Positions 5,230 through 51,933 of a DNA stretch of 54,096 nucleotides are shown here, one piece after another (position 1 is the first letter of the stretch; each line of letters starts with the position of its first letter). A program made the translations under genes and the position numbers. A model generated the notes under the pieces. That model saw only the letters and a list, made by a program, of their open reading frames with translations. It was not told the DNA's origin and did not search any database. Source of the stretch: Bacteroidales bacterium (GTDB lineage Bacteria; Bacteroidota; Bacteroidia; Bacteroidales; P3). The DNA lies in NCBI GenBank assembly GCA_031260565.1, contig JAISLH010000021.1, positions 1-54,096 of the forward strand, in the 5' to 3' direction.

Positions 5230-5635
5230 AAACAGCGACACTGCATTATAATTTAGCGAAACGGCGTTTGAATTTGCCAAAACCTTGTTTCATTTCGCGG
5301 AAACCTTGTTTAAACTCACTCAAACAGCGTTTAAAGTTACGGAAGCTTTGTTTTAAATTCTTGAAACAAAGTTTAAGTTTAATAAGATGTACAACTTATT
5401 TTCAGAAGATGTACATCTTATTTTATTTTGATGTACATCTTATTTTCGTTTGATGTACATCTTATTTATTTTTGATGTACATCTTATTAAAATTAAATGT
5501 ACGTCAAATAAAATTAAAACACTGCTTCAAGAATTTAAAACAAAGCTTCCGCAACTTTAAACGCTGTTTCCGTGAGTTAAAACAAGGTTTCCGCAAGTTA
5601 AAACAAGGTTCTGACAAAATGAAGTAGGGTTTGAG
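5230..5635. repeat. Block module C: long inverted repeat around a 22-bp palindrome array
   Basis: The largest of eleven related intergenic modules. Two arms of nearly 100 bp, 5279-5377 and 5517-5611, are imperfect reverse complements. Within each arm 11-bp blocks (AAACCTTGTTT twice, AAACAGCGTTT, AAGCTTTGTTT, AAACAAAGTTT) alternate with 10-bp spacers, a 21-bp period. The centre holds the GATGTACATC array. Outer blocks AAACGGCGTTTG (near 5260) and GAAGTAGGGTTTG (near 5620) link it to the AAACGCC family. It fills the gap between the GSCFA promoter and the 3' end of the AddB-like gene; no gene lies in 5185-5684. Confidence 0.9.
5386..5505. repeat. Six-unit 22-bp array of the palindrome GATGTACATC
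   Basis: Perfect palindrome GATGTACATC at 5408-5417, 5430-5439, 5452-5461 and 5474-5483, each exactly 22 bp apart. Degenerate copies GATGTACAAC at 5386 and AATGTACGTC at 5496 extend the phase on both sides. Spacers are AT-rich (TTATTTTATTTT type). Two helical turns per unit would put all sites on one face of the DNA. Confidence 0.95.
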
Positions 5636-18477: not shown

Positions 18478-18503
18478 AATTTCTTTTAAGTATTTTCGTG
18501 CGG

Positions 18504-18534
18504 CAAAGGTACAAATTTTCTTTCATTCAACAAA
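18504..18534 (-). promoter_or_regulatory. Promoter for the methyltransferase-ATPase unit
   Basis: Minus-strand TTTG (CAAA at 18531-18534), 19 bases, TACCTTTG (CAAAGGTA at 18504-18511). Both element sequence and spacing are near ideal. Confidence 0.75.
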
Positions 18535-18575
18535 ATAGCAGTTGATTTTGTCCAAATATGATACAATTAGCACCC

Positions 18576-18609
18576 TTTGATTTTCTTAAAGGAATTTTGC
18601 GTACCTTTG
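18576..18609 (+). promoter_or_regulatory. Divergent promoter of the small transcript
   Basis: TTTG at 18576-18579, 22 bases, TACCTTTG at 18602-18609. It points away from the methyltransferase promoter and towards the small unit ending at 18816. Confidence 0.55.
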
Positions 18610-18632
18610 CACTCTCAAACGAAAATAAAACT

Positions 18633-18728
18633 ATGACAGCACAATATCAAAAAACATCAATACAAATTATAGATTTAATGCAACAAAATGCTATTAAAAC
18701 ACATCTCTTTTGCGTGTTAAAAACGTGA
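18633..18728 (+). CDS. Possible 31-residue peptide
   Basis: ATG at 18633 to TGA at 18726-18728, starting MTAQYQKTSIQIIDLMQQNA. It lies about 17 bases after the predicted transcript start, with only a weak A-rich ribosome site. The peptide has no transmembrane helix and no recognisable domain. It could be chance within a structured RNA, or the N-terminal stub of a lost gene. Confidence 0.25.
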   Translation: MTAQYQKTSIQIIDLMQQNAIKTHLFCVLKT

Positions 18729-18784
18729 TGTTTTTGTATAAATTGTACATTGTGATATTTCAATAAAGCAGTATGTAAATTTCT

Positions 18785-18816
18785 GGGGATAATATAATAT
18801 TTTATCCCCTTTTTTT
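18785..18816 (+). terminator. Intrinsic terminator of the small transcript
   Basis: GGGGATAA (18785-18792), AT-rich loop, TTATCCCC (18802-18809), then seven T's. No T-run exists in the other direction, so it serves rightward transcription only. Confidence 0.85.
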
Positions 18817-18832
18817 GGCTTTTGCCAAAATT

Positions 18833-18866
18833 AAAGCGGCGTTTCAGCGTCACGAAACGCCACTTT
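18833..18866. repeat. Block module E (two blocks, inverted orientation)
   Basis: AAAGCGGCGTTT at 18833-18844 and AAACGCCACTTT at 18855-18866, 22 bp apart, joined by CAGCGTCACG. The joining sequence is the reverse complement of the GGCGTTTCGTGACGCT core of modules F, H, I and K. It lies between the terminator and the convergent gldG stop. Confidence 0.85.
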
Positions 18867-18901
18867 ATTTTCTCAAAATAATGAGTTTAAATGTAACGCC
18901 C

Positions 18902-21437: not shown

Positions 21438-21659
21438 AGTATTTCATTTTATTATTTTGAGGCTGCGAAAGTACATATATTTTTTGTATTTTGGGCAAAA
21501 TAGCATAAATGGAGTTGATTTTAGTCATTTTCTTGTGCAAAAATGCGGTCAAAAATTGACATAATAATTATGTTTTATCTCATAAAATTTACACAAAACA
21601 CTCATTACAAACAGTCGCTTTGAGCATAAATTTTACCGCTATAAATCATCGTTTTACTA

Positions 21660-21775
21660 AAACGCCGTTTTAATTTCCTAAAGCGGCGTTTCGTGACGCT
21701 GAAGTGGCGTTTCAAGAAATTAAAACGCCACTTCGTGAAAATAAGGCAGAGTTTCATTTTGCTAAGTTAGTGTTT
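21660..21775. repeat. Block module F (six blocks)
   Basis: Block starts at 21660, 21680, 21701, 21723, 21743 and 21764, spacing 20-22. Blocks 3 and 4 (GAAGTGGCGTTT, AAACGCCACTTC) are exact complements. It contains the shared core GGCGTTTCGTGACGCT. It lies between the gldF promoter and the M50 gene stop. The rest of 21438-21830 is AT-rich with the palindrome CATAATAATTATG near 21559 and no gene. Confidence 0.9.
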
Positions 21776-26704: not shown

Positions 26705-26829
26705 ATAAACTCCAAATTTCTGCTTGCAAAGATAAGTAAAAATTTTCAAATGAAATATTTCGCCAAATGAAAACATCAAAACATTAGAATTTTACCTTAA
26801 TTTTCTCTTCCATATTCTTCAGAAAAATA

Positions 26830-26965
26830 AAACGCCGTAATAATTTCTTGAAACGCCACTTTAGCGTCACGAAACGCCGCTTTAGGAAATTTAAACGGCG
26901 TTTTATTTTAGCAAAGTAGCGTTTGAAAAAATAAAACCTTGCTTCGTTATGCTGAAGCAAGGTTT
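26830..26965. repeat. Block module G (seven blocks, inverted orientation)
   Basis: Block starts at 26830, 26851, 26872, 26893, 26913, 26934 and 26954, spacing 20-21. The joint GCGTCACG between blocks 2 and 3 shows that the shared core is on the minus strand here. The last two blocks switch to AAACCTTGCTTC and GAAGCAAGGTTT, a sequence type otherwise seen in module C arms. It fills the gap between two leftward genes; nothing else is seen in 26705-27015. Confidence 0.9.
26925..26965 (-). terminator. Block hairpin acting as a leftward terminator
   Basis: Perfect 12-bp stem AAACCTTGCTTC / GAAGCAAGGTTT (26934-26965) with loop GTTATGCT. Read leftward it is followed by TATTTTTT. It would end transcription of the gene at 27016-27672. 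Confidence 0.65.
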
Positions 26966-30170: not shown

Positions 30171-30286
30171 AAAGTAAGGTTCGTAAAAATGAAACGGCGT
30201 TTTAATTTTCTAAAGTGGCGTTTCGTGACGCTAAAGTGGCGTTTCAAGAAATTAAAACGCCACTTTAAGAAAATGAAGCAGAGTTT
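30171..30286. repeat. Block module H (six blocks)
   Basis: Block starts at 30171, 30192, 30212, 30233, 30255 and 30275. Blocks 4 and 5 (AAAGTGGCGTTT, AAACGCCACTTT) are exact complements. It shares the GGCGTTTCGTGACGCT core and the GAAGCAGAGTTTGG end with module I. It lies between two convergent genes. Confidence 0.9.
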
Positions 30287-34686: not shown

Positions 34687-34783
34687 AAACGCCGCTTTAA
34701 TTTTCTAAAGCGGCGTTTCGTGACGCTAAAGTGGCGTTTCAAGAAATTAAAACGCCACTTTAGGAAAACGAAGCAGAGTTTGG
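34687..34783. repeat. Block module I (five blocks)
   Basis: Block starts at 34687, 34707, 34728, 34750 and 34770, spacing 20-22. Blocks 1-2 (AAACGCCGCTTT, AAAGCGGCGTTT) and 3-4 (AAAGTGGCGTTT, AAACGCCACTTT) are exact complements, giving two neighbouring hairpins. It carries the core GGCGTTTCGTGACGCT. It sits upstream of the FISUMP promoter and downstream of the LRR gene; no gene lies in 34526-34852. Confidence 0.92.
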
Positions 34784-36910: not shown

Positions 36911-39900
36911 TTAGAAACTACGGCTGTTGATTGTGTAATTTGCAATGAGTCTTTGCTCAACTAATGATGCTATTTTATCTAAAAATACTTGTACTTCAAC
37001 CTTATGCTTCTTGCCTTTCAAAGTTACAGCAACCTCATTTTGTCTATCAACAATTAGAAAGTTCAAACCAATTGCGCCCTTTGAAGTCTTGGCTGCCTGT
37101 TCCAAAATATCGTAAAGCTGATTGCTCATATTATCAATGTCAATTACCAAAGAAATAGATGTAGCATAAGTAGTTAGCACACCGTCTAACGGCTCTATTT
37201 TGCTAATCTTAAACTCCAATTCATCGTTTGTTGCTCCGCCTGCACTCCATTTGTTTTTGACGCTGCCCTTTATTAGAACCGCAAAGCCATTGCGAAGATA
37301 ACTTTTGAAGTTTAGGTAATCTTTGCCAAACAATGTTATTTCCTGCGAGCCGCTTTGGTCATCTATGCGAAACGAACCATAGGGCGTGTTCTTTTTTGAA
37401 ATCCTTTCTGACACCGATTGAATAATACCTCCTATTGTTAGGTCTTTTCCTTTCAGTTCTTCAAGATTTTGTAAGTCTTCTATCTGATTAGTCACAAACG
37501 TTCTAATGGCATCTTTGTATTGGTCAAGAGGATGCCCAGATATATAGAAACCTATGATTTCCTTTTCATACGATAGCTTCTCTAAATCACTCCATGGCTC
37601 ACAGGTAGGGATAACAGGGTCTTCCACTGCCTGCGTTTCGCCGTCTTCAAACAAGGAAACCTGAGGCGAAGATAGCAATTCCTTATATTTTGTGCCGTAA
37701 CGGATAAGTTTTTCCAAGAAAGGCAGCTCGTCTTTTCCCTCTTTGGAATAGAAATACTGAGCTCTATGGGCATTATCAAAACAATCAAAAGCACCGGATT
37801 TAACCAATGATTCAAGGCATCTTTTATTCACCACACCCTGATCAATTCTCTGTATGAAGTCAAAGCAAGACGAAAAGTCGCCTCCCTCATTACGTACTCT
37901 TATTATTTCCTCTGCCGCTTTCTCTCCAACGCCTTTGATAGCCGCTAAGCCAAAGAGAATATCCCCTTTCTTATTAACCATAAAGTTTAAGTCCGATTCA
38001 TTAACCGAAGGTGCAAGAACATTTATCTTTTGTCTCAAACACTCGTCTATATAGAACGAAATAGCCCTAATATCTTTGAGATTATGAGTCAGAATGGACG
38101 ACATATATTCACCTGTGTAATGAGCCTTCAGGTATCCTGTCTGAAAGGCAATGTAGGAGTAACAAGTAGAGTGAGATTTGTTGAAGGCATACTTGGCAAA
38201 CTCTCCCCAATCGTCCCATATCTTCTCAACCTTCTTCTGCTCATAACCATTGTCGGTGCAGCCCTTAATAAACTTGTCCTTTAATTGTGCCATAACGTCC
38301 TGTTGCTTTTTGCCCATAGCCTTACGCAGTTTGTCGGCTTGCCCTGGCGTAAAGTCAGCTAAGACTTGCGAGAGTTGCATGACCTGTTCCTGATAAACAG
38401 TTATACCATACGTCTCAGCAAGGTATTTTTCCATTACATCAAAGGTGTATTCTATCTTTTCCTGCCCGTTTTTTCTCCTTATAAAGGACGGAATGTAGCT
38501 CATAGGACCGGGTCTGTATAGGGCATTCATTGCAATTAAGTCTTCAAATCGGTCGGGTTTCAAGTTCTGCAAGTGCATTCTCATTCCGTCAGACTCAAAC
38601 TGAAATGTGCCAATGGTATCTCCTCGTTGAAATAACGCCAAGGTATCTTTGTCGTCAAGGGGAATATGGTCTATATCAATTTTTACGCCGTGTGTTTTCA
38701 TAATATTATCACAGGTATCCTTTATTATAGACAAGTTTTTCAGCCCAAGAAAGTCCATTTTAATCATACCAACACTTTCTATAAGCGTTCCCTCAAACTG
38801 CGACACCATCATATTACCCATAGTATTTTCTTCCTTTTCCGTAGGCTTGGCAACAGGTATGTAGTTAGAGATGTCATCAGGTCCTATCACAACACCACAG
38901 GCATGAACACCAGTATTTCGTATTGAGCCTTCAAGTTTAAGAGCCAAATTTAAGGTTCTCTTAACCAATTCGCTGCCGTGTTCTAATTCGTGCCTCATCT
39001 CTTCTGTCTTGTAGGCGTCTTCAAGTTTCGTACCGGGTTTATCAGAGACTAACTTCGCTAAACGATTAGATTCATTAAGCGGAAGGTCTAACACACGAGC
39101 CACGTCTTTTATTGCCATTTTGGCTGCCATAGAGCCAAAGGTTACTATTTGTACCACGTGGTCTTTACCATATTTCTCTCTAACGTAGTCAAGGGTTCGC
39201 TCCCTCCCCTCATCATCAAAATCCACGTCAATATCAGGCAAAGATATACGGTCAGGATTGAGAAATCGCTCAAAAAGCAAGCCATAAGCCAAAGGGTCAA
39301 TCGTTGTTATACCCAAGCTATACGCCACAACAGAGCCAGCAGCCGAGCCTCTACCCGGACCAACTATTACTCCCAAATGCTCTCTTGAATGATTGATGAA
39401 GTCCTGCACGATAAGAAAATAGCCGGGAAAGCCCATCCATTCAATAGTTGCCAATTCGCTCTTAAGCCTTTGCTCAACGTTTTCAGGCAAGGGCTCACCA
39501 TATTGTTTCTTTGCCCCTTCATAAGCAAGATATTCCAAATATGCACACTCAAATTTGGTTCGTACAATCTTATCATAGCCTCCTTTCCCTATCACTTGGC
39601 GTTTAATGAGTGCATTTTGTTCTTCCGTTCCTTTCTCCTGCTCCGATACTTCACCCTTTTGCTCTAATTCCTTATATATTTCCTCCTCTATAACCTCTTT
39701 CGGGTACAACCGATAATACTCTTCAATGCCTCCAAACTCCATTGGTATATCAAAAACAGGCAAAACGGGGTTGCGCTCCATTTTATATATCTCTACCTTA
39801 CTCACAATCTCTTGCGTGTTACTGATTGCTTCGGGTGCTTCTTTGAATAGGTCAAGCATTTCTTCTTCTGACTTCAAATACTCTTCACCTGTGTACATCA

Positions 39901-40603
39901 TCTTGGTTTCATCGCTGAATTTCTTACCAGTATTGAGGCAGACAAGGACAGAATGAGCTTCAAAATCTTCTTTATTGACAAAATGAACGTCATTTGACGC
40001 TATCAATTTTATGTTTAACTGCTTGCTAAACAAGATTAACTGCTTGCGAACAATCTCTTCCTCGTGCAGATGATGATTTTGAATTTCCAAATAAAAGTCT
40101 TCACCAAACGCATCCCTATATCTATTGATAGCCTTCTCCGCTGCAACCAAATCATCGTTAAGAATAAGCTGCTGAACCAAGCCTCCGATACAGGCAGTTG
40201 TACAAATCAAGCCTTCTGTGTATTGAAACAGCAGTTCTTCATCTATTCTCGGCTTACTGTAATAGGCTTCGCGGGCAAAGGAAAGGGAGCTTAATTTGGT
40301 AAGGTTTTTGTAACCGACTGCGTTTTTGGCTAATAGAATAAGGTGGTCGCCACCTTGCTGGAGCTTGTCTTTGTTGAAACGGCTTCCTCTGGCAACATAC
40401 ATTTCGCAACCGATAATTGGAGTTATCCCTTCCTTGATAGCGGTGTTATAGAAATCTAAAACACCATAGAGATTGCCATGGTCAGTGATAGCAATAGCTG
40501 CCATATTAAGCTCTTTTGTTCTTTTGATAAGGTTCTTCACCGATGCAGCGCCGTCAAGTATTGAATACTGCGTATGGACGTGTAGATGTGTAAATTGCGA
40601 CAT
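36911..40603 (-). CDS. dnaE: DNA polymerase III alpha subunit
   Basis: A 1230-residue replicative polymerase of the DnaE1 type. An N-terminal PHP domain (HLHVHTQYSILDGA near 7-20, ITDHGNLYG), a polymerase core with the catalytic LPDIDVDF near 455, the fingers and beta-binding region, and a C-terminal OB fold (LTIGGIIQSVS). Full length. A TACTTTTG -7 element (plus-strand CAAAAGTA, 40640-40647) lies upstream. It is followed by queG. The large block module J lies upstream of its promoter, in the divergent gap. Confidence 0.97.
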   Translation of the reverse strand: MSQFTHLHVHTQYSILDGAASVKNLIKRTKELNMAAIAITDHGNLYGVLDFYNTAIKEGITPIIGCEMYVARGSRFNKDKLQQGGDHLILLAKNAVGYKNLTKLSSLSFAREAYYSKPRIDEELLFQYTEGLICTTACIGGLVQQLILNDDLVAAEKAINRYRDAFGEDFYLEIQNHHLHEEEIVRKQLILFSKQLNIKLIASNDVHFVNKEDFEAHSVLVCLNTGKKFSDETKMMYTGEEYLKSEEEMLDLFKEAPEAISNTQEIVSKVEIYKMERNPVLPVFDIPMEFGGIEEYYRLYPKEVIEEEIYKELEQKGEVSEQEKGTEEQNALIKRQVIGKGGYDKIVRTKFECAYLEYLAYEGAKKQYGEPLPENVEQRLKSELATIEWMGFPGYFLIVQDFINHSREHLGVIVGPGRGSAAGSVVAYSLGITTIDPLAYGLLFERFLNPDRISLPDIDVDFDDEGRERTLDYVREKYGKDHVVQIVTFGSMAAKMAIKDVARVLDLPLNESNRLAKLVSDKPGTKLEDAYKTEEMRHELEHGSELVKRTLNLALKLEGSIRNTGVHACGVVIGPDDISNYIPVAKPTEKEENTMGNMMVSQFEGTLIESVGMIKMDFLGLKNLSIIKDTCDNIMKTHGVKIDIDHIPLDDKDTLALFQRGDTIGTFQFESDGMRMHLQNLKPDRFEDLIAMNALYRPGPMSYIPSFIRRKNGQEKIEYTFDVMEKYLAETYGITVYQEQVMQLSQVLADFTPGQADKLRKAMGKKQQDVMAQLKDKFIKGCTDNGYEQKKVEKIWDDWGEFAKYAFNKSHSTCYSYIAFQTGYLKAHYTGEYMSSILTHNLKDIRAISFYIDECLRQKINVLAPSVNESDLNFMVNKKGDILFGLAAIKGVGEKAAEEIIRVRNEGGDFSSCFDFIQRIDQGVVNKRCLESLVKSGAFDCFDNAHRAQYFYSKEGKDELPFLEKLIRYGTKYKELLSSPQVSLFEDGETQAVEDPVIPTCEPWSDLEKLSYEKEIIGFYISGHPLDQYKDAIRTFVTNQIEDLQNLEELKGKDLTIGGIIQSVSERISKKNTPYGSFRIDDQSGSQEITLFGKDYLNFKSYLRNGFAVLIKGSVKNKWSAGGATNDELEFKISKIEPLDGVLTTYATSISLVIDIDNMSNQLYDILEQAAKTSKGAIGLNFLIVDRQNEVAVTLKGKKHKVEVQVFLDKIASLVEQRLIANYTINSRSF

Positions 40604-40892: not shown

Positions 40893-41097
40893 AAACGCCA
40901 TTTTAACTTCACCAAACGCCGTTTCATTTCAACGAAGTGGTGTTTAAAATTCGGTAGGTATATACCAAAAATTCGGTAGGTATATACCTATCGCTCGTTT
41001 GGTATATACCAAATTTTCGTTTGCTATATACCTACCGAATTTAAAGTGGCGTTTTGGTAACATAAAACAGCATATAGTCAAGTTAAAACAGCGTTTG
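40893..41097. repeat. Block module J: AAACGCC-type blocks flanking a 22-bp palindrome array
   Basis: Ten units at 40893, 40914, 40934, 40956, 40978, 41000, 41022, 41043, 41065 and 41086, spacing 20-22. The outer units are AAACGCC/GGCGTTT or AAACAGC blocks; the middle four are GGTATATACC. It is in the divergent gap between dnaE and the amidohydrolase, the only module not near a 3' end. The rest of 40604-41182 is AT-rich with no gene. A TACTTTTG -7 element for the amidohydrolase is at 41154-41161. Confidence 0.92.
40957..41032. repeat. Four-unit 22-bp array of the palindrome GGTATATACC
   Basis: Perfect GGTATATACC at 40957-40966, 40979-40988 and 41001-41010, and GCTATATACC at 41023-41032. All are exactly 22 bp apart, the same spacing as the unrelated GATGTACATC array at 5.4 kb. 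Confidence 0.95.
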
Positions 41098-41182: not shown

Positions 41183-42412
41183 ATGAATACGATACTAATT
41201 AAAAACATAACGCTTATTGACGGCAGTCAAAAGGATATTCTTATTAGCAACGGCAAGTTTGACAGAATTGCAGCCAACATAGCCGATAAGGCGGAGATAA
41301 CGATTGACGGCAAGGACAAAACTATCATTCCTGCTTTTTACAACGCTCATACCCACGCTGCTATGGCTTTGTTGCGGTCGTATTCGGAAGGAAAATCGTT
41401 GCAATCGTGGCTTAATGAAGTGTGGAAGAAGGAAGCAACACTCACCAATGAAGATATTTTCAACGGCTCTCGCCTTGCTATTTTGGAGATGATACGCAGT
41501 GGCACTGTCTTTTTTGCAGATATGTATTGGAAACATAAATCCGTCATTGCGGCTGTAAAGGATATGGGGGTAAGGGCAAATGTTGGCATAACCTTTATGG
41601 ATACGCTTGACAGCAAGACCTGTGAGGAGAATATGGAGTTTATTAAGAGCTTTGCCAATGACGACAAGATGATAAGCCTTTCGGTCTCCCCTCACGCCAT
41701 ATATACTTGCAGCGAAAGGATGTATGAAAAGTGTTACGAGATTGCCCATAGCAACGGGTTGAACCTCCATACCCATCTGTGCGAGACACAAAAGGAGGTT
41801 GCGGACTGCATAAGCAAGTACGGCATTAGTCCTGTTGAGTTGCTTGATAAACTTGGTGTTCTTGATAAGCATACTATTGCTGCCCATTGTGTTCATATCA
41901 CACCAAGCAATGCGGATATTCTTGCAACAAGAGAAGTGAATGTGGTGCATAATCCCTGTTCTAATATGAAGTTAGCAAGCGGTGTCTTTCCTTATCGTCT
42001 TTGCAAAACGGCTGGAATAAACATTGCTCTCGGTACTGATGGAGCTGCTTCCAATAACTCTCTTTCCATGTTACAGGAAATGAAGTTTGCGTCCCTTTTG
42101 GCGAAGGTCTCAACCGACAATCCTACATCTTTACCTGCCCAAGAGGTTTTCCAATGGGCTACAACTAACTCTGCAACTGCCTTTGGTTTGAAGGCAGGCG
42201 TTATTGCTGAGGGTTATGATGCCGATTGCCTTTTGGTGGATATGAATCACGTATCTCTTGTGCCGAATAACGATATTGTATCTTCCTTAGTTTATGCTGC
42301 CGATAACGAATGTATCAATACCGTTATCTGTAACGGGAAAGTCCTTATGCAAAACCGCATCATAGAAAAGGAAGAAGAGATAATAGCAAAGGCTAAAAAG
42401 TTCATAAAATAA
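41183..42412 (+). CDS. Amidohydrolase, MtaD/SAH-deaminase-like
   Basis: A 409-residue metal-dependent amidohydrolase of the 5-methylthioadenosine/S-adenosylhomocysteine deaminase and SsnA-like group. The metal-binding NAHTHAAM is at 54-61, with HTHLCET, HCVHIT, and LGTDGAASNN holding the catalytic Asp. Full length and cytosolic. Likely deaminates an adenosine-type compound in purine or methylthio salvage; guanine or other substrates are possible. A SUMF1-like gene starts 15 bases after it. Confidence 0.88.
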   Translation: MNTILIKNITLIDGSQKDILISNGKFDRIAANIADKAEITIDGKDKTIIPAFYNAHTHAAMALLRSYSEGKSLQSWLNEVWKKEATLTNEDIFNGSRLAILEMIRSGTVFFADMYWKHKSVIAAVKDMGVRANVGITFMDTLDSKTCEENMEFIKSFANDDKMISLSVSPHAIYTCSERMYEKCYEIAHSNGLNLHTHLCETQKEVADCISKYGISPVELLDKLGVLDKHTIAAHCVHITPSNADILATREVNVVHNPCSNMKLASGVFPYRLCKTAGINIALGTDGAASNNSLSMLQEMKFASLLAKVSTDNPTSLPAQEVFQWATTNSATAFGLKAGVIAEGYDADCLLVDMNHVSLVPNNDIVSSLVYAADNECINTVICNGKVLMQNRIIEKEEEIIAKAKKFIK

Positions 42413-51816: not shown

Positions 51817-51933
51817 GAACGCCATAATAATTTCCTGAAACGCCACTTCATTTTTCTAAAGCGGCGTTTCGTGACGCTGAAGTGGCGTTTCAAGAAATTA
51901 AAACGCCGCTTTAGGAAAATGAAGCTGCGTTTG
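51817..51933. repeat. Block module K (six blocks)
   Basis: Block starts at 51817, 51838, 51858, 51879, 51901 and 51921, spacing 20-22. Complements are interleaved: block 2 (AAACGCCACTTC) with 4 (GAAGTGGCGTTT), block 3 (AAAGCGGCGTTT) with 5 (AAACGCCGCTTT). It shares GGCGTTTCGTGACGCT and lies between the terminator and the next promoter; no gene in 51740-52088. Confidence 0.92.

Follow-up and report, generated by a model that had tools for sequence, protein, structure and literature searches.

The array at 40.9 kb of the window, i.e. of the whole 54,096-nucleotide stretch of DNA that was analysed, belongs to a set of several hundred intergenic arrays with a helical lattice in the source genome (G000; 2.05 Mb in 133 contigs, 99% complete). 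In these arrays, pseudo-dyad cores of 9-12 bp recur every 21-22 bp, corresponding to two helical turns, in either orientation and in register, and each large module has one centre of mirror symmetry, located either on the lattice or halfway between its points. At a probability of roughly 0.4, we favour the reading that the cores are sites of dimer size, closely packed along one face of the helix and remodelled by palindrome-mediated copying. The array and its neighbouring genes comprise the following features:

40893 to 41096, no strand assigned: whole lattice module of 10 cores, mirror-symmetric about 40994.5, mean step 21.44 bp
40893 to 40945, no strand assigned: left-arm cores AAACGCCATTT (40898), AAACGCCGTTT (40919) and AAGTGGTGTTT (40940)
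40957 to 41032, no strand assigned: central 22-bp array of three GGTATATACC cores (40957, 40979, 41001) and one GCTATATACC core (41023)
41044 to 41096, no strand assigned: right-arm cores AAGTGGCGTTT (41049), AAACAGCATAT (41070) and AAACAGCGTTT (41091)
36911 to 40603, minus strand: flanking gene dnaE (DNA polymerase III alpha), with the Pfam domains DNA_pol3_alpha, DNA_pol3_finger and PHP
41183 to 42412, plus strand: amidohydrolase gene, the divergent neighbour

The earlier note had described three copies of GGTATATACC and one of GCTATATACC at 22-bp intervals, flanked by AAACGCC-type blocks in the same phase and located upstream of dnaE. All of this was borne out: the four central cores start exactly at the listed positions, the flanking cores are centred on the same lattice at 40898, 40919, 40940, 41049, 41070 and 41091, and the array is located about 290 bp upstream of the open reading frame identified as dnaE by its Pfam domains, between this gene and the divergent amidohydrolase gene. 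The cores are pseudo-palindromic, of the AAACGCC type in the outer part and GGTATATACC in the inner part, and the steps between them measure 21, 21, 21.5, 22, 22, 22, 21.5, 21 and 21 bp. The ungapped complementarity of the two arms reached 0.69 (69%), compared with a maximum of 0.455 (46%) over 2000 random centres, and the self-complement score of 102 compares with 54 when the units were shuffled inside the arms (z 3.0).

The same architecture is indeed present at 5.4 kb around an unrelated palindrome, with GATGTACATC as the centre instead of GGTATATACC, as the earlier note had claimed. The further lattice blocks of the window are:

5259 to 5632, no strand assigned: module of 18 cores with a centre of the GATGTACATC type and exact mirror symmetry about 5445.5
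21648 to 21748, no strand assigned: AAACGCC-type 21-bp lattice module without a central palindrome
26823 to 26913, no strand assigned: AAACGCC-type 21-bp lattice module
30186 to 30282, no strand assigned: AAACGCC-type 21-bp lattice module in a convergent intergenic region
34687 to 34775, no strand assigned: AAACGCC-type 21-bp lattice module
51827 to 51927, no strand assigned: AAACGCC-type 21-bp lattice module
1585 to 1680, no strand assigned: another 21-bp array with the unit ATTATTTTATTACGGGACTAA

In the module at 5.4 kb, arm complementarity amounted to 75% versus a maximum of 42% over 2000 random centres, and the self-complement score was 205 versus 74 for units shuffled inside the arms (z 9.7). 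A dispersed element that is specific to the source species was also noted; it combines an AAACGCC lattice block with a terminator-like GGGGATAA...TTATCCCC and a conserved ORF of about 31 amino acids, which reads MTAQYQKTSIQIIDLMQQNAIKTHLFCVLKT in the window. Its window copy is the minus-strand module at 18478-18901, and further copies were located at L012 (about 11181), L015 (about 794 and 7507), L019 (about 149), L021 (about 3898) and L025 (about 4036 and 5581). The 24-bp signature of the element yielded 56 matches in the source genome when up to three mismatches were allowed and none in G001 to G004.

The spacing of the cores is almost rigid. On average, 3.9 of the 5 base pairs that flank a lattice point were dyadic, compared with 0.7-2.0 at the other offsets tested, and this together with the mirror identity of the arms far above that of 2000 random centres indicates that the modules are not products of chance. 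When GGTATATACC pairs were searched genome-wide with a free gap, N{2,32}, all 78 carried 12 bp between the copies, i.e. a 22-bp step, so that the free-gap count equalled that at a fixed 12-bp gap, and the reversed-pattern control gave 0. Direct AAACGCC pairs with gaps of 4-34 bp (31 gaps allowed) numbered 171 genome-wide versus three matches for the reversed control; among the 100 listed, 96 had a step of 21 bp, two had a step of 22 bp and two were off the lattice, and AAACGCC-GGCGTTT pairs displayed a single spacing throughout the matches listed. Pairs in opposite orientation fell on the same lattice in the stretches fetched from three genomes, namely 86 of 86 for AAACGCC in G000, 35 of 36 for AATCAAATT in G003 and 18 of 18 for AAACAGCC in G001. 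The 14 bp located 3' of AAACGCC share just 40% identity on average between units, with a nearly invariant spacing, and unrelated core families meet in phase, at 21.5 bp (AAAC::GGTATATACC and AAAC::GATGTACATC) or 22 bp (AATTTGATT::CTTGSCAAG). The TCAAG family showed a constant 19-bp offset on either side, since the anchor used was off-centre. Constant in-phase spacing of dyad sites, as in helically phased operator or iteron arrays, is thus present.

The 21/22 lattice is a feature of this bacterial family that is unevenly distributed among its genera. A DnaE search returned Bacteroidales metagenome-assembled genomes as relatives, the nearest being JAISUE01 and JAISTG01 with 76-77% identity, and the source genome and three congeners (G001 to G003) represent four members of one genus. 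An autocorrelation of intergenic k-mers revealed peaks at 21 and 22 bp and their multiples in G000, G001 and G002, with none comparable elsewhere, and a peak at 21 bp was likewise found in G006 and G007; steps of one or three turns were not enriched in intergenic DNA. Among intergenic regions of at least 120 bp, which were delimited by ORF length rather than annotation, a 21/22 array was present in 8 of 15 in the window, 15 of 40 in G001, 10 of 58 in G002 and 16 of 44 in G003 (17-53%), and eight decoy lag pairs gave 0-2 each in the same regions. The G000 contigs chosen for GGTATATACC contained such arrays in 39 of 100 regions (decoys 0-3), and other genera of the same family in 19 of 100 (decoys 0-6); the G000 stretches and five of the first ten G001 stretches had been picked by GGTATATACC matches, those of G002, G003 and the other genera had not. 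The corresponding counts of about 4% in other Bacteroidales families (3 of 82) and other classes (3 of 75) assign the lattice to this family. As all genomes are metagenome-assembled and some contigs end within arrays, the arrays are undercounted and may be collapsed. The G000 contigs C4, C29, C40, C53, C54, C59, C62, C71, C72 and C73 start or end in or beside GGTATATACC arrays, which indicates that these arrays break the assembly.

The sequences of the units vary from genome to genome. Arrays of GGTATATACC were detected among 60 relatives only in G001 (28 pairs with one mismatch allowed), exact ones were absent from 295 other genomes of the phylum, and viral contigs contained none. Upstream of dnaE, an array is present in all four congeners, but the sequences are essentially unrelated, their pairwise local scores lying at the shuffled level except for a weak similarity between G001 and G002. 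On the 3' side of a PDDEXK gene, three species carry three unrelated arrays and the fourth carries none, with one genome compared per species. Accordingly, the proposal of the earlier note that spacing and self-complementarity are kept rather than sequence is supported and holds beyond the window, and the check suggested in that note came out positive: at least four distinct central palindromes of 10 bp (GGTATATACC, GATGTACATC, GATACGTATC, GACAATTGTC) were found, all with steps of 21-22 bp, this step and its multiples are the sole enriched intergenic period in four congeneric genomes, and the sequence is completely replaced beside the same flanking gene. Perfect central palindromes, however, are not general. 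Most arrays outside the source genome are no more dyadic than shuffled units, and perfect palindromic units were rejected as a general rule; since many arrays have weak dyads only, spacing is a stronger invariant than the dyad. Arrays with other steps were observed as well, including 42-bp arrays with the near-perfect 21-bp palindrome ACAATGTAYGYCATACATTGT in G001 (L030 4834-5085; L123 2588-2926), an array with a 41-bp step upstream of dnaE in G002 (L125 2435-2767, AAAGTCTTATAACAGTGTTTTTAGGTTTCCGCAAATATGCG), in which two cores apparently alternate at distances of 20 and 21 bp, and two 23-bp palindrome-containing arrays CTCACAAGCTTGTCAATTTTTAT in G054 of another Bacteroidales family (L097 8231-8298 and 9647-9736).

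The arrays are intergenic, with a long predicted stem-loop, and folding with DNA parameters gave z-scores of -6.45 for the module at 40.9 kb and -19.4 for that at 5.4 kb. Such very stable predicted stems are what RNA hairpins would provide, acting as terminators, attenuators or RNase III-processed double-stranded RNA, in which 22 bp would equal two A-form turns. The mismatches between the arms, however, were without G.U bias on either strand: G.T and A.C mismatches numbered 187 and 188 in G000 and 57 each in ++ contexts, so that neither transcript strand is favoured. Moreover, divergent regions were at least as rich in arrays (14 modules in 27 regions) as convergent ones (6 in 19), tandem regions contained them too, and an Rfam match was not obtained within the window. 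The constraint acts on the DNA and not on one transcript strand, and the hairpin reading, rejected on mismatch symmetry and gene context, is highly improbable. Intrinsic curvature by helix-phased A-tracts, for which a protein would be unnecessary, agrees with a step of two helical turns, but the AA/TT power within units was 6.0 at 10.5 bp versus 7.2 at 7 bp in G000 and 2.8 versus 16.2 in G001; being unsupported by these values, it is the least probable of the explanations considered.

In the large modules, the arms are complementary in the same unit order, with z-scores of up to 9.7; 14 of 50 modules of the source genome exceeded z = 2 and 39 of 50 exceeded twice the base-shuffled score. Such an order-specific match requires inverted copying or correction, beyond mere similarity of the units, and gives direct support to the copying mechanism that had been suggested in the earlier note. 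Its second suggestion, binding proteins of one family, would agree with the in-phase orientation flips and the in-phase junctions of unrelated families, the proteins themselves being putative.

Copying might also account for the arrays entirely. Sequence-agnostic selfish or neutral satellites could be made and homogenised by slippage, fold-back template switching and ectopic conversion with no functional binding of the cores, the step of 21-22 bp being the ruler of the copying process, e.g. an enzyme footprint. This explanation, the main rival of the favoured reading, which we consider quite possible although below even odds, is in line with the mirror order of the arms, the linkers shared by dispersed blocks, the complete turnover beside the same gene, the presence or absence of arrays among congeners and their occurrence in every gene orientation with a preference for neither promoters nor gene ends. 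Strand switching at a palindromic core would, in addition, keep the register automatically when the orientation flips. Long palindromes are limited by SbcD in Escherichia coli, and it likewise fits the satellite explanation that canonical SbcD (TIGR00619) was below cut-off in all four members of the genus and above it in 27 of 61 relatives examined. Its absence above cut-off may allow long palindromes to persist, yet is not what determines the lattice: SbcD loss was discarded as the cause because the protein is present in the array-rich genomes G006, G017, G027 and G028 of other genera, a comparison of low power. On the other side, satellites require a ruler of exactly two turns, steps of one or three turns are not enriched, in-phase junctions of unrelated families would not be expected by chance, and a convincing excess of 21/22-bp duplications was not found in real genes, where the apparent excess could be attributed to heptad or low-complexity protein repeats or to ORFs drawn over arrays.

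A mechanism has to account jointly for the two-turn spacing shared by unrelated sequences, the in-phase flips and the mirror order of the arms. Flips would stay in phase if strands were switched where a core is nearly palindromic, or if selection retained dimer sites facing one side of the helix. The in-phase junctions of unrelated families along with the lack of one- and three-turn steps favour an external ruler. Two turns are the natural packing distance of a dimer that covers about 20 bp. In the favoured dimer lattice, each core would therefore be the footprint of one putative protein dimer, and neighbouring dimers would line up along the same helix face as a coat, a silencer or an architectural nucleoprotein array. 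The mirror order of the arms points to palindrome-mediated copying, by which the arrays would grow and change sequence through inverted copying (fold-back or strand switch) at near-palindromic cores, conversion between loci and slippage in tandem over one or two units, and the copies remaining in phase would be those that are kept. The wide differences among cores would be explained if recognition of the sequence were relaxed or if several related proteins were involved. The rigid spacing, the in-phase flips in three families, the in-phase junctions, the linkers of about 40% identity and the mirror-ordered arms argue for the dimer lattice. The complete core turnover between congeners, which a sequence-specific protein would not tolerate, and the frequently weak dyads outside the source genome argue against it; moreover, identical cores that recombine could passively inherit the in-phase spacing, and a core family that looks unrelated may have arisen by divergence at its present site.

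Sequence is the usual criterion by which families of repeats are defined, whereas here a geometry of two helical turns plus dyad is shared by unrelated sequences at different loci and in different genera of one family, as if the length and symmetry of the DNA were measured instead of its sequence. As a tentative and rather doubtful generalization, a system in this family might write and maintain intergenic arrays with spacing and dyad symmetry as its sole criteria, any core being suitable if it recurs every two helical turns; each locus and species would then devise palindromes of its own, with the lattice preserved. A bound lattice would imply a new architectural or silencing protein that acts at a large share of the intergenic regions, and a lattice made by copying would reveal a mutational process that has a ruler of two turns. 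Either would account for a class of repeats that cross-species sequence searches miss, since it is not the sequence that is conserved.

Among known systems, the ends of IS21, Mu and Tn7 carry several repeated sites of about 22 bp per arm in inverted arms. They counted in favour of MITE- or REP-like mobile elements, i.e. elements mobilized by a transposase (RAYT, IS21-, Mu- or Tn7-like) that recognizes arrays of 21- to 22-bp sites at both ends, as did the multi-copy dispersed AAACGCC blocks with their conserved linkers and the inverted arms, which resemble transposon ends. Mobile elements are nevertheless an unlikely source of the lattice. In a search for the RAYT and rve families, neither Y1_Tnp (PF01797; present in 19 of 41 relatives) nor the rve transposase domain (PF00665) matched in any of the four genus genomes. 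Transposon ends of this kind have neither mirror-ordered, unit-by-unit complementarity nor central arrays of palindromes, and an alignment of 25 anchors of one type showed that conservation decays outward from the AAACGCC core region with no common terminus. Filled and empty pairs of orthologous sites that retain both flanks, the basis for judging target-site duplication and constant termini, were not found. REP, BIME and REPIN palindromes are likewise multi-copy, intergenic and paired or inverted, but REP/RAYT systems need the RAYT transposase (PMC3733652), which the lattice genus lacks. REP and REPIN sequences comprise a palindrome of 20-40 bp with a GTAG/CGTC tag, whereas the lattice cores of 9-12 bp are too short for REPs, lack an evident tag and follow a strict two-turn lattice.

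Plasmid iterons are spaced about 22 bp apart, and the heptads of the omega protein are bound in either orientation. These arrays resemble the lattice in their closely packed sites on one DNA face and, for omega, in their freedom of orientation, but they comprise one sequence per protein at one locus, whereas the lattice involves hundreds of chromosomal loci and many unrelated cores. In the openly accessible literature searched, a description of a sequence-independent two-turn lattice was not found, the only related work being that on BrickBuilt and REPs. BrickBuilt, a MITE or minisatellite of Porphyromonas gingivalis with many intergenic copies of a 23-nt unit, long predicted stem-loops, a leader and a tail with small inverted-repeat ends and a unit number that varies among strains (PMC4596501), is the closest described element. 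It shares with the lattice the occurrence in Bacteroidales, the intergenic location, a tandem unit near two helical turns, long predicted stem-loops and a high copy number, and its 23-bp step is that of the CTCACAAGCTTGTCAATTTTTAT arrays of G054. BrickBuilt, however, is one sequence family with a 23-nt step, whereas the lattice consists of many unrelated families with steps of 21-22 bp and is distinguished by in-phase orientation flips, mirror-symmetric nesting of families and complete turnover between species.
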